Of a stretch of DNA of 7,830 nucleotides, positions 3,447 to 7,759 are shown in pieces. The stretch is from Nitrospinae bacterium RIFCSPLOWO2_12_FULL_45_22. Its GTDB lineage: Bacteria; 2-12-FULL-45-22. The stretch is taken from positions 2,988 through 10,817 of the forward strand of contig MHDQ01000131.1 of NCBI GenBank assembly GCA_001803565.1, given 5' to 3'. Numbering within the stretch: position 1 is the first letter of the stretch; each line of letters begins with the position of its first letter. Below the pieces are notes generated by a model. That model was not told where the DNA came from, ran no database searches, and worked only from the letters and a program-made list of their open reading frames with translations. The translations under genes were made by a program, and so were the position numbers.

Positions 3447-3549
3447 GTTATTACGTTATTGGGTTACTAGGTTATTAGGTAACTAAATAACGCAATGACC
3501 CAATAACCTAATGACTAAATAACGCAATGGCGCAATTACGTAATAACTC
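3446..3549 (+). repeat. array of thirteen 8-bp units filling the metG-tatD gap
   Basis: Reading from the last base of the metG stop codon, the sequence divides without remainder into 13 octamers up to the base before the tatD ATG. The first four to five resemble GGTTATTA (GGTTATTA, CGTTATTG, GGTTACTA, GGTTATTA, GGTAACTA). The next eight resemble AATAACGC/AATGACCC, which is the same motif on the opposite strand. The array is therefore also an imperfect inverted repeat; for example, 12 bases around GTTATTGGGTTA pair with TGACCCAATAAC with one mismatch. It holds no visible ribosome-binding site or poly-T terminator. Confidence 0.9.
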
Positions 3550-4947
3550 ATGCTGATAGACACCCATGCCCATCTGGATTTTCCTGATTATGAACCTGAC
3601 CGGGAACAAGTGCTCCAGCGGGCCTCAGACGCAGGGATACAATATATTATTACCGTCGGGACTGACCTCGCTTCTAGCAAAAAGTCTTGTGAGCTCAGCC
3701 AGTCTTATCCCCAAATATATGCCAGCATCGGCATCCATCCCCACGAAGTCAAAGAGCTGGGGCCTGACCCCTCAGATATTTACGATGTCCTGAAAGGGCT
3801 AGTGCGGCAGGGCAAAGGGAAAGTAATAGCCTGGGGAGAGGCTGGGTTAGACTATTACCGGGATTATTCTCCCAGGGAGGTTCAGGAGAGGGAATTTCGC
3901 CACCAGGTCAGGATAGCTCAGGAGCTGGACCTGCCTTTGATTATCCATGCCCGGCAGGCCCATGACGAAGTATTGAAAATCCTTAACGAAGAAGCGGGCC
4001 CCAGGTTGCGGGGTGTCTTCCACTGCTTCTCTGGCGATGAGAGGATTGCTAAGGAAGTGCTGGGCTTAGGTTTTTATATCTCCCTGGCAGGCCCCCTTAC
4101 CTACCCCAACTCTCATAAATTACAGCGGCTGGCAAAAATACTCCCTACTGACCGCCTATTGCTGGAGACCGATGCCCCCTTCTTAACACCCCAACCACGG
4201 CGCGGGAAACGAAACGAGCCCGCCTTTGTCACCTATGCGGCGGATAAACTCGCTGAGATAAAGGGGCTTTCTAGTAGAGATATTGCCCGGATAACTTCCC
4301 TCAATGCCTCTCTTCTGTTCGGCATAGGAGGAAAGGATAAGACCGCTAAGATCGTTTACCAAATAAGGAAATCCCTCTACCTCAACCTGACTAATCGCTG
4401 CACCAACAACTGCTGCTTCTGTGTCAGGAACGATACCACCTATGTTAAAGGGCATAACCTGAAACTATCCCAGGAGCCTTCCATAGAGGAGCTCTGGCAA
4501 GCCACAACTGCAGAAGACCCAGGCCGCTACCAGGAGGTGGTATTCTGTGGCTTAGGGGAACCTACGTTGAGGCTAGAGGTTATTAAAGAGATTGCCCGTC
4601 GCTTAAAAACCAGAGGGATAAGGGTACGGCTCAACACCAATGGCCAGGGCAATTTGATCCATGCCAGAAATATCCTGCCGGAGCTAGAGGGCTTGATTGA
4701 TGCTATCTCTGTGAGCCTCAATGCAGAGGATAAAGAAAAATATTATCACTTATGCCACCCCATATTTGGCCTTGATACTTATGACCAGGTCAAGGAATTT
4801 ATTAGGGGGGCGAAGCGATATATCCCGCAGGTAGGTGTCACGGTGCTGGATATGCCCTGGGAGATAGATCTAAGCAAGTGTCAGGAGATAGCAGAAAAGG
4901 AGTTGGGGGTTTCCTTCCGCATCAGAGAATATAACATACTCGGCTGA
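3550..4947 (+). CDS. fusion of TatD family hydrolase and TatD-linked radical SAM protein
   Basis: Residues 1 to about 258 form a TatD-type metal-dependent hydrolase (TIM-barrel, DNase family). Metal ligands are visible: H6 and H8 (THAHLD), E97 (GEAGLD), H133 (IIHARQ), H158 (VFHCFSGD) and D208 (LETDAP). Residues about 270-465 form a radical SAM domain with the 4Fe-4S cysteines C284, C288 and C291 (CX3CX2C) and a CGLGEPTL segment (333-340) in the SAM-binding GGE position. Free-standing radical SAM proteins encoded next to tatD are a recognised family, and fusions occur; the substrate of that half is unknown. The ATG directly follows the octamer array and has no clear Shine-Dalgarno sequence. 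Both halves look complete, and there is no frameshift at the junction. The gene is separated from metG by 103 bp and probably belongs to the same transcription unit. Confidence 0.93.
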   Translation: MLIDTHAHLDFPDYEPDREQVLQRASDAGIQYIITVGTDLASSKKSCELSQSYPQIYASIGIHPHEVKELGPDPSDIYDVLKGLVRQGKGKVIAWGEAGLDYYRDYSPREVQEREFRHQVRIAQELDLPLIIHARQAHDEVLKILNEEAGPRLRGVFHCFSGDERIAKEVLGLGFYISLAGPLTYPNSHKLQRLAKILPTDRLLLETDAPFLTPQPRRGKRNEPAFVTYAADKLAEIKGLSSRDIARITSLNASLLFGIGGKDKTAKIVYQIRKSLYLNLTNRCTNNCCFCVRNDTTYVKGHNLKLSQEPSIEELWQATTAEDPGRYQEVVFCGLGEPTLRLEVIKEIARRLKTRGIRVRLNTNGQGNLIHARNILPELEGLIDAISVSLNAEDKEKYYHLCHPIFGLDTYDQVKEFIRGAKRYIPQVGVTVLDMPWEIDLSKCQEIAEKELGVSFRIREYNILG

Positions 4948-5735: not shown

Positions 5736-5993
5736 TTACATTTTAGCTACTTCTTTTTTCATTTCATCTAAGGATATTCTTTTCCCTAGTTTAAATTCCT
5801 TTCTTGATTTTGCAATAATCTCGAGGAATTCTTGATTTGTGCTTAAAGATATTGATTCCATATCTACGTCTTTTAGCGAAACAAGCGCCGCCACAGGCTT
5901 ATCCTTCGATTTTAGAACCAGTATTTCTTTATCAATTTCTTTGGCATACTCAGATAAAGGTTTGGAGGCCGTTTCTAAATCAATTGTTTTCAT
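5736..5993 (-). CDS. Phd/YefM-family antitoxin
   Basis: This 85-aa protein has the Phd/YefM layout. An N-terminal DNA-binding part (ETASKPLSEYAKEI, about 7-20) leads to the typical KDKPVAALVSLKD strand segment (about 30-43), followed by a charged, helical C-terminal tail that would wrap the toxin. Such proteins neutralise their toxin and repress their own operon. The gene lies directly downstream of a RelE-like toxin gene; in the repaired toxin frame the stop TGA overlaps this ATG as ATGA. The order toxin-then-antitoxin is the reverse of the commonest RelBE layout but is seen in other systems. The antitoxin looks intact although its partner is broken. It converges with the + strand genes, with 71 bp between; I see no clear terminator there. 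Confidence 0.85.
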   Translation of the reverse strand: MKTIDLETASKPLSEYAKEIDKEILVLKSKDKPVAALVSLKDVDMESISLSTNQEFLEIIAKSRKEFKLGKRISLDEMKKEVAKM

Positions 5994-6297
5994 AATTTCA
6001 CCGTCTTTCCAGCCATAAATAAGACACTACCTTTCTTATAACCTACTGCAAGGATTTTTACAATTTTACAATATTGGGATCATCTGATGTGATAGCGTAA
6101 AATGCACGAAGGTTGCCTATTCTTAATTCCCAAGGGGCAATTGGGTTAGGACGAAGAGGTTTTCTATTTCGTGTCTCTTTCAGAGGCTCGTGGAAAAGTT
6201 GCTTTTCAATTCCATCCATTATTAATGAACGCTGACTTGCGTTTAGGTGTTTGAAATGTTCTCTGACGCAATCGGCAAATTCGATTTTGTAGGCCAT
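5990..6297 (-). pseudogene. RelE-type toxin gene broken by an 8-bp duplication
   Basis: As it stands the frame runs from ATG 6297 to a stop at 6058, giving 79 residues. These match the RelE/ParE toxin fold: YKIEFADCVREHFKHL at the start, then ELRIGNLRAFYAI before the end. The final strand is cut off at NIVKL. Immediately after, another frame encodes KILAVGYKKGSVLFMAG and then KTVKL-stop, the usual C-terminus of the family. The break falls at two tandem copies of TTGTAAAA (- strand). Removing one copy gives a continuous 99-codon frame whose stop overlaps the antitoxin start. RelE-type toxins are ribosome-dependent mRNA endonucleases, and C-terminal residues are needed for activity in characterised members, so this copy is probably inactive. 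No Shine-Dalgarno sequence precedes the ATG (AGAATAAAAA). Confidence 0.88.
6056..6071 (-). repeat. 8-bp tandem duplication causing the toxin frameshift
   Basis: On the + strand TTTTACAA occurs twice in direct succession (6056-6063 and 6064-6071). It adds 8 bp, which is not a multiple of three, inside the toxin gene. Slippage at such a repeat could also delete one copy and restore the gene. Confidence 0.9.
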
Positions 6298-6325
6298 TTT
6301 TTATTCTAATTTTAAAGCCACAATG

Positions 6326-6357
6326 GGTAAGGGAGAGGCCGTCGCCACTCCCTTACC
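6326..6357 (-). other. strong hairpin at the 3' end of the structured region
   Basis: GGTAAGGGAG pairs perfectly with CTCCCTTACC over 10 bp. After a U-U mismatch three more G-C pairs close a GACG loop. The following bases (CATTGTGGCTTTAAAATT on the - strand) lack a real T-run, so this is not a textbook Rho-independent terminator. It may be the 3' boundary stem of the RNA or an element upstream of the toxin gene, whose ATG lies 28 bp further on. Confidence 0.6.
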
Positions 6358-7229
6358 GTTGTCGCAATAGGGTCAATTCCCTATATTTGCCCCGATAGAA
6401 AACTTTCCTAACGAGGTTTACCAGCGTGAGTCTTTCTCTCACTGGGCGGCCCCCGCAAGATTGCCCCAAATAGGGGAGTAATCATATCGACCTTTGCCTG
6501 TTTGCAACAGGTGTTCCCTTGTTGATACGATTACCGAAGGTAGTCGATCAATATCTACATCGAGAGTGTTCTTAGCGTTACATTGAGCCTTCCCCTACTT
6601 TTCATACATGAAAGTAAGGGAGAGCCTTATGTGGCCGATACTCGTAAGCTAACTTCTCCCATGCGGTTACCTCTCCTACCTCTCTCTTTTAGGTGTACCC
6701 TTTTGAGCTTCCAAAAGAAAGCCCTCCTCCGGGTACGCTGTAGACCCTAAAGAGCAAGAGCCAGGGATAGCCCCGTGCTCACCATCGCATAACGCCAACA
6801 TTTCGGCATAGCCTTATAGTTGCCGCTTATCTCCATCTTCACAAATGGAGAACGACGTAGATCATTCATCGGTCAGTTATTGCACCATTTTCCTCAGGTG
6901 AAACCACCAAGCACCCCCACGAGTCATCCATGGATAATCGTCCACTACATGGACGGAGGTCAATAGACTACATAACCCCAGCGCTTCAGTCGTCGTTAGG
7001 CTCCTGGCGCACAGAGAAGGCCGAATCGTGACTCCTCCCGAAGTATCATTGCCTGGCCCCTTCGCCACAGCCCATTTCTGGACTGCCCTGGCTGCATACC
7101 CCTCAAAAGAGAGTTCGAGCAATGACTTCTGTACGGAGACGAATCCGCACCTGTCTGCCAAGGCACAGGCAGGCTCCGACCCTAAAAGGGCCTCACCGTT
7201 TAAGACTGAGCGCAATTAACCTGCGTCTC
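6326..7229 (-). ncRNA. candidate large structured RNA, about 900 nt, family unknown
   Basis: This is the longest stretch without a convincing gene. It is dense in local stems, read on the - strand: 7208-7229 (GAGCGCA stem with one bulged A), 7150-7173, 7131-7150 (7 bp), 7068-7085 (CAGUCCA-GAAA-UGGGCUG, a GNRA loop), a longer-range 7-bp helix pairing 7119-7125 with 7046-7052, 6940-6954, 6831-6850, 6752-6756 with 6776-6780, 6695-6700 with 6731-6736 enclosing 6705-6724, 6588-6625 (about 16 bp), 6522-6551, 6497-6511, 6421-6445, and 6326-6357. In the stems at 7068, 7131, 6705 and 6588, G-U wobbles on the - strand would be A-C mismatches on the + strand, so the - strand is the likely RNA. Size and complexity recall large bacterial RNAs such as OLE, GOLLD or ROOL, but I recognise none of their motifs. 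Transcription is not shown. Confidence 0.5.
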
Positions 7230-7230
7230 A

Positions 7231-7288
7231 CGGTAACGATAGAGCTAAGCTGCCGCTGAAAGCGGTTGGCTGGAGCGAATGGTTAGGT
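7231..7288 (-). mobile_element. integron attC site (left)
   Basis: On the - strand it opens with ACCTAAC (R'', 7288-7282), then CATTCGCTCCAGCC, a hairpin CCGCTTTCAGCGG, and AGCTTAGCTCTATC before GTTACCG (R', 7237-7231). The CGCTCCAGCC left arm is shared with the right attC. The R' end keeps GTTA but breaks the GTTRRRY rule, because the bases after G belong to whatever follows the cassette. The site lies three bases after the stop of the 127-aa membrane protein gene, as expected for a cassette recombination site. Confidence 0.85.
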
Positions 7289-7290
7289 GC

Positions 7291-7674
7291 TCAAGACACA
7301 AAGCCAAAATAGCCGAACAAGAGTCCGACGAAAATCCAAACATATGGAAGTATCCTCAAAACCCTGTCGTTGAAAAATGGTTTGGAGAGACTCTGAAAAT
7401 ATTTTGGGAAGGCTATTATGATTACGCCTTTCATTAGGGTGAGCCAGCCGATAATCGTTATCAGCACAGTCCAGTTTCTTTCCCAGCTATTGTGATAGTT
7501 CACTATCATAAATCCAATAATGACTGCCGTGAGACCCATAAAGTATGTCAGTGCAGTGTTCTTGAACATGTCGTCCTTTAGTCTGCGATAATGATCTGCA
7601 CTGAAAATCCCACCTACAGCAACCGATAGATATATTACCGAAATGATTTTGGCGATGAGCCTAGATAGTTCCAT
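7291..7674 (-). CDS. small four-helix membrane protein, cassette-borne
   Basis: This 127-aa protein has four hydrophobic segments: residues about 6-25, 39-59, 68-92 and 106-124. They are separated by short charged loops, including HYRRLKDD and YHNSWERN. It is probably an inner-membrane protein of unknown role. The WTVLITIIGWLTLMKG stretch resembles a widespread family of small uncharacterised membrane proteins; this is from memory. ATG 7674 is chosen because GGAGG at 7683-7687 lies 8 bases upstream. ATG 7689 and GTG 7716 are in frame, but the latter starts inside the attC. The stop lies three bases before the next attC, leaving almost no non-coding DNA in the cassette. No promoter is visible between the attC and the gene, so expression probably depends on read-through from the right. 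Confidence 0.8.
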   Translation of the reverse strand: MELSRLIAKIISVIYLSVAVGGIFSADHYRRLKDDMFKNTALTYFMGLTAVIIGFMIVNYHNSWERNWTVLITIIGWLTLMKGVIIIAFPKYFQSLSKPFFNDRVLRILPYVWIFVGLLFGYFGFVS

Positions 7675-7682
7675 ATCAGCGG

Positions 7683-7687
7683 CCTCC
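7683..7687 (-). promoter_or_regulatory. ribosome-binding site deciding the cassette gene start
   Basis: GGAGG on the - strand lies 8 bases before ATG 7674. It overlaps the alternative ATG at 7689, which has no site of its own, so 7674 is the likelier start. Confidence 0.65.
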
Positions 7688-7698
7688 ATATCTGTTGC

Positions 7699-7759
7699 GC
7701 CTAACGATAAGCTCACCCGCGCGCGGTTTTTGCGCGTCGGCTGGAGCGCTTTGTTAGAC
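7699..7759 (-). mobile_element. integron attC site (right)
   Basis: On the - strand it reads GTCTAAC (R'', 7759-7753), AAAGCGCTCCAGCC, a GC-rich hairpin around GACGCGCAAAAACCGCGCGC, GGGTGAGCTTATC, then GTTAGGC (R', 7705-7699). Both ends fit the RYYYAAC/GTTRRRY consensus, and length (61 bp) and arm sequences are typical. The polarity gives cassettes reading on the - strand, in line with the flanking ORFs. Confidence 0.92.

Follow-up and report, generated by a model that had tools for sequence, protein, structure and literature searches.

The gene-free stretch consists of two separate modules

What does a bacterial genome encode in some 900 nt (positions 6326-7229) that lack a gene, look densely folded and lie beside integron cassettes? 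The window, i.e. the entire 7,830-nt stretch of DNA analysed here, is located on contig C131 of a 3.67-Mb assembly comprising 321 contigs (85% complete), and the initial annotation had proposed that this part of it may give rise to a single large RNA of unknown type from the minus strand. The absence of genes was borne out: ORF calls and protein-family searches detected no recognisable gene in 6326-7229, and none of the six frames produced a match to a protein family (Pfam, NCBIfam, tblastn against plasmids). A decayed protein gene, whose discovery the annotation had named as evidence against an RNA, was sought by the same searches and rejected, as none of them returned a protein match.

The idea of one giant RNA did not survive BLAST against the own genome, in which the two halves of the stretch match different contigs, each without the other. 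Therefore, 6326-7229 is not one unit, and a single 900-nt RNA is ruled out by the separate genomic copies of its halves. Two distinct folded modules without coding function, designated elements A (461 nt) and B (228 nt), make up the stretch together with the attC-like spacer that separates them. The features are, in minus-strand order:

7291-7716, minus strand: gene of the preceding cassette, small membrane-like protein without family (ORF call, Pfam)
7231-7288, minus strand: attC1 of the preceding cassette (read from the sequence; layout as the attC at 1710-1765 of locus L003)
7004-7231, minus strand: element B, non-coding module of about 228 nt starting with GTGAGACGCAGG (copies in loci L003, L004 and L005)
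7086-7179, minus strand: conserved core of B, ~78 nt (alignment of the B copies)
7149-7174, minus strand: dispersed palindromic REP-like repeat, 25-mer CCTGCCTGTGCCTTGGCAGACAGGT (many near-exact matches on many contigs of the genome)
6787-7001, minus strand: attC2, a degenerate, remodelled attC-like spacer (read from the sequence; weak fold)
6322-6782, minus strand: element A, non-coding structured module of 461 nt (82% identity over its whole length to positions 1570-1135 of locus L002 on contig C261)
6326-6357, minus strand: 3' hairpin of A (repeat search; of the type that also closes B in L003)
6058-6297, minus strand: putative RelE-like ORF of 79 aa, after A in the same cassette (no Pfam match)
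5736-5993, minus strand: Phd/YefM-like antitoxin ORF (PF02604, E 3.7e-4, under the curated cut-off)

Element A has the 5' end GTGAGCACGGGG and a 3' hairpin closing in CCCATT, while B starts directly after the GTT of attC1. The window copy of B has a degenerate 3' hairpin, and its core carries a 16-column REP-like insertion, which is unique to this copy. A 112-aa ORF with a TTG start (6877-7215) spans this insertion and the spacer, and the B copies exhibit frame-breaking indels. The spacer possesses the core boxes GCCTAAC (7001-6995) and CGTTATGC (6794-6787), separated by a long, poorly paired middle; at the matching place, L002 has a well-formed attC. A sigma-70-like promoter on the minus strand is present in the spacer at 6963-6934, and none was found on this strand within A or B. 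Elsewhere in the window, an ORF of 465 aa (3550-4947) fuses a TatD DNase to a radical SAM domain, and variants of GGTTATTACGTTATTGGGT are repeated on both strands of intergenic DNA at 3447-3550 and at about 2270-2370 of locus L026, beside unrelated genes.

Folding of the minus strand of 6326-7229 yielded -368.9 kcal/mol, corresponding to a z-score of -5.7 relative to dinucleotide shuffles. The description as densely folded thus holds for the stretch as such, but most of the excess resides in element A (minus-strand z -6.2 to -6.8), with z-scores close to chance for B (-1.6) and in between for the spacer (-2.5). The strand preference that had been deduced from G-U pairs is not reflected in fold strength, as the plus strand reaches z -7.3; in the substitutions of A it does have a partial counterpart (see below).

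Both modules recur in the genome and begin at attC boundaries

In the own genome, element A has one further copy (L002, 82% identity from end to end), and B has three, located in L003 (C216), L004 (C99) and L005 (C260). Exactly these two A and four B copies were recovered by covariance models built on the respective cores. The B copy in L003 is of whole length (1707-1467), the copy in L004 extends from 1644 and that in L005 is partial; the latter two are truncated at the 3' side. Long runs are nearly identical between the A copies, and the ~78-nt core of B is nearly invariant in all four copies, while the remaining B sequence diverges.

In all five copies that are readable at this point (both copies of A, and those of B in the window, L003 and L004), out of six in total, the 5' start of homology coincides with the boundary of the preceding attC. 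The upstream attC sites of the two A copies differ, and homology starts at CGTT; those of the B copies likewise differ in sequence, yet homology begins where the attC ends. The closing triplet at this position is GTT, and CTT in L004. In both elements, 4-10 nt separate the crossover G^TT from GTGAG. The sixth copy, partial B in L005 (1501-1594), directly adjoins sequence that codes for a repeat protein, with no attC visible where the contig ends. At the other side, A and B have a terminal hairpin in common, with the minus-strand consensus CGGGGAGGGGGTGGCTACGKCCYCCCTTACCCAYT; the corresponding pattern matches the genome three times, always in element copies, and a reversed control not at all. 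Local alignment of A from L002 with B from L003 scored z 5.2 against shuffles. A and B are hence discrete modules with genomic copies, constant position and orientation in the readable copies, a common 3' hairpin and no detectable protein.

The direction of the arrays could be read from the attC sites. On the minus strand, the L003 attC (GCCTAACAATTCATTCCAGCCGACC...GCGGCTGAACTCAATCGTT) has the same layout as the aadA1 attC (L034) in cassette direction and as the first attC after an intact intI in the own genome (L021), and the attC sites of L002 and L003 taken in minus direction fit the top-strand attC pattern. The cassette ORFs near A and B are on the minus strand, too. Attributable to this layout and these genes, we conclude that the arrays run on the minus strand and that A and B are the 5' heads of cassettes, in sense with them. 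The stretch is therefore not merely adjacent to integron cassettes, as annotated at first, but forms the starts of two of them. The genome encodes two full-length integron integrases scoring above the curated cut-off, along with several fragments or split copies, and the coexistence of full-length and broken integrases suggests repeated gain and decay of integrons.

Toxin-antitoxin (TA) genes usually follow A and B. The RelE-like ORF of the window is located 25 nt downstream of A and is followed by the Phd/YefM-like antitoxin, without an attC between A and these genes. In L002, a putative PIN-like ORF follows A after about 320 nt; in L003 a small TA-like pair, and in L004 a short ORF, is found downstream of B. 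Downstream of B in the window lies the degenerate attC-like spacer. No copy of the window's TA cassette without element A was found in the own genome.

Substitutions in element A tend to preserve minus-strand pairs

The two A copies differ by 49 substitutions. When the minus-strand fold of L002 served as reference, 18 pairs were kept vs. 11.6 expected (P 0.005) and 11 were broken vs. 20.3 expected (P 0.0006). With the window fold as reference the trend was weaker (P 0.10 for kept and 0.18 for broken pairs), and pair keeping on the plus strand was weaker in most comparisons. The kept changes are mostly G-C/G-U exchanges, and two-sided changes were not in excess (2 vs. 1.0 in shuffles). No pair-keeping signal was detectable among the B copies, in a test that is approximate since it used L003 and L004 copies lacking their first few 5' bases. 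With no more than two copies of A and four of B, which all come from a single genome, covariation is weak. Taken together, the substitution patterns lend moderate support to selection for minus-strand RNA pairing in A; RNA-level selection in B is unsupported. Of the large RNA first envisaged, what stands is a plausible structured minus-strand RNA of about 460 nt for element A, not a giant of ~900 nt. Reading a single window can merge neighbouring cassette parts into an apparent giant RNA.

The modules match no known RNA family

Rfam searches with 6326-7229 yielded nothing at gathering thresholds and no credible match at E<=10, and the covariance models of OLE, GOLLD, ROOL, HEARO and group I introns did not match A or B. 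The initial failure to assign the stretch to a known giant RNA is thus confirmed by a search. The two models built from the A and B cores detected nothing in 385 other genomes (386 including the own), and neither BLAST against 60 relatives nor searches of phages and plasmids revealed a match to A or B. Exact-pattern scans of GTDB and IMG/VR were likewise negative, although diverged copies would escape exact patterns. As far as could be searched, the A/B family appears to be peculiar to this lineage.

Intron derivatives, DNA elements and decay as alternative explanations

A real ORF-less group II intron resides at an attC of the own genome in the same orientation as A and B, which makes group II introns the strongest rival: A and B could have arisen from attC-associated group IIC introns by internal deletion, as non-autonomous elements that lack domain V and are mobilised in trans. 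In favour are their 5' GUGAG, a 3' hairpin that looks like domain VI and ends in AYU, and, by eye, AGAAGUUAGC in A and CAGAAGUCA in B, which are similar to the domain III motif AGAAGUCAGC. The shared motifs AGAAGTYAGC and CAGAAGTCA were picked by eye post hoc and deserve little weight. The resident intron (L029; RF02001 122 bits, RF01998 32 bits) has a related partial copy, L014. However, the Rfam library that detects L029 finds no group II model in A or B at E<=10, and a profile of six IIC introns including domain V, which recovers L014 at 1.9e-25, finds nothing in either. An ordered-block test gave p 0.07-0.70 for A and B compared to z 10 for L014. RF00029 did not match A or B, although its sensitivity to IIC introns is limited, and the domain V motif GAACCGCC...GGTGGT is absent from both by eye. 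Moreover, the introns of L029 and L034 begin exactly at CGT^T, whereas A and B have their start several nt further downstream, past a complete GTT box, and PF00078 revealed no group II reverse transcriptase in the own genome. Membership in the group IIC introns was rejected on these grounds, as domains I-IV, domain V and insertion at CGT^T were all lacking while the positive controls L029 and L014 were detected; that A and B are distant or heavily deleted derivatives of such introns strikes us as unlikely, if less so than the two explanations below.

The resident intron itself is an ORF-less element of ~850 nt in cassette orientation (about 1501-2361 of L029, contig C17, minus strand), and related introns occur at plasmid-borne class 1 integrons. 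It shares an extra stretch of ~130 nt with L014, and its domain V is not listed by RF00029 at E<=10 in spite of the 122 bits with RF02001. The sole reverse transcriptase found in the genome (L017, contig C291) is part of a long ORF that also encodes TPR-like repeats and other sequence, unlike an intron-encoded protein.

Defined ends with differing flanks, hairpins at both ends, several copies and the 3'-truncation of B in L004 and L005 are also what discrete non-autonomous DNA elements would leave behind, i.e. MITE-like elements, for instance of the IS200/IS605 or IS110/IS1111 type, which target attC and form hairpins at the DNA level without a functional RNA. IS1111 elements provide a precedent, as they target attC (PMC11187229). 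Nevertheless, no consistent target motif or duplication was seen, homology begins at the integrase crossover, and A keeps minus-strand pairs better than plus-strand pairs. The sole IS110-type transposase found in the genome (L026) has nothing in common with A or B, neither ends nor similarity, and an IS110/IS1111 element was rejected. We regard DNA elements as improbable. Still less credible is that A and B are decaying non-coding or formerly coding DNA without present function, whose folding stems from hairpin-rich cassette DNA. The fold of B barely above shuffles and the modest one of the spacer would agree with decay, as would two features of B in the window, its degenerate 3' hairpin and its REP-like insertion, but long near-identical runs in A, the nearly invariant 78-nt core in four otherwise divergent B copies and the six frames devoid of a protein match speak against it.

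Non-coding leaders of integron cassettes as best explanation

We put the chance at roughly one half that A and B are non-coding cassette leaders or fused gene-less cassettes, specific to this lineage, from which TA cassettes obtain a structured RNA and possibly a promoter. B and A would be the non-coding heads of two successive cassettes in a minus-strand integron array, each beginning at the preceding attC boundary, lying in sense with the cassette genes and ending in a GC-rich hairpin. Each module might be transcribed as a structured leader; alternatively, it may originate from a gene-less cassette that lost its own attC and became fused to the next cassette. In either case, the module could supply a regulatory RNA and/or a promoter to the cassette genes and would spread through integrase recombination of cassettes. 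As in a gene-less cassette, A and B start at the preceding attC crossover (CGTT; CTT in L004) and contain no protein-coding gene. Several observations do not fit the cassette-leader reading well: covariation is weak, attC2 is degenerate, A and B showed no sigma-70-like promoter on the minus strand, and sharp 3' ends with differing flanks could also mean insertion of a discrete mobile element. The partial B of L005, next to a plain gene and with no attC in view, likewise speaks against it, although its contig ends there.

More speculatively, and in our view rather unlikely, A and B could be the first representatives of a new RNA class whose structured members move as cassette heads and control the TA cassettes joined to them, possibly derived from a retroelement of which the terminal hairpin was kept. 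If the cassette-leader reading is true, the reuse of a conserved, strongly folded module in front of different TA cassettes would suggest that RNA or promoter leaders can be exchanged between cassettes. Of all parts of integrons, non-coding cassettes are the least understood.

Comparison with known systems

The giant RNAs OLE, GOLLD, ROOL and HEARO resemble the stretch in size range and dense folding only; A and B are two modules without an Rfam match at E<=10. Group IIC-attC introns (PMC7923331; RF02001; L029, L034, L035) likewise reside directly after attC, with a GUGNG-like 5' end and a terminal GC-rich hairpin. In contrast, A and B have no match to domains I-IV or V and no intron-encoded protein, and their start is displaced from CGT^T, leaving the R' box upstream. 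A non-coding RNA on an integron has a precedent in sRNA-Xcc1 of Xanthomonas campestris, described as an integron-encoded trans-acting sRNA (cited in PMC8876359); the likeness concerns this description, and the RNA of A and B is predicted. Gene-less (ORF-less) integron cassettes with promoter activity are known from Vibrio and Treponema (PMC11014356, PMC6557892), and sense promoters are documented in Vibrio (PMC11014356). Like these, A and B are non-coding units between attC sites, in sense with the downstream cassettes. They differ in that A is large and strongly folded, that they have either a degenerate attC of their own at the 3' end or none, that their promoter role is putative and that they recur as conserved modules before different TA genes. 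New would be how large and conserved A is, and that one head is reused in front of different genes.
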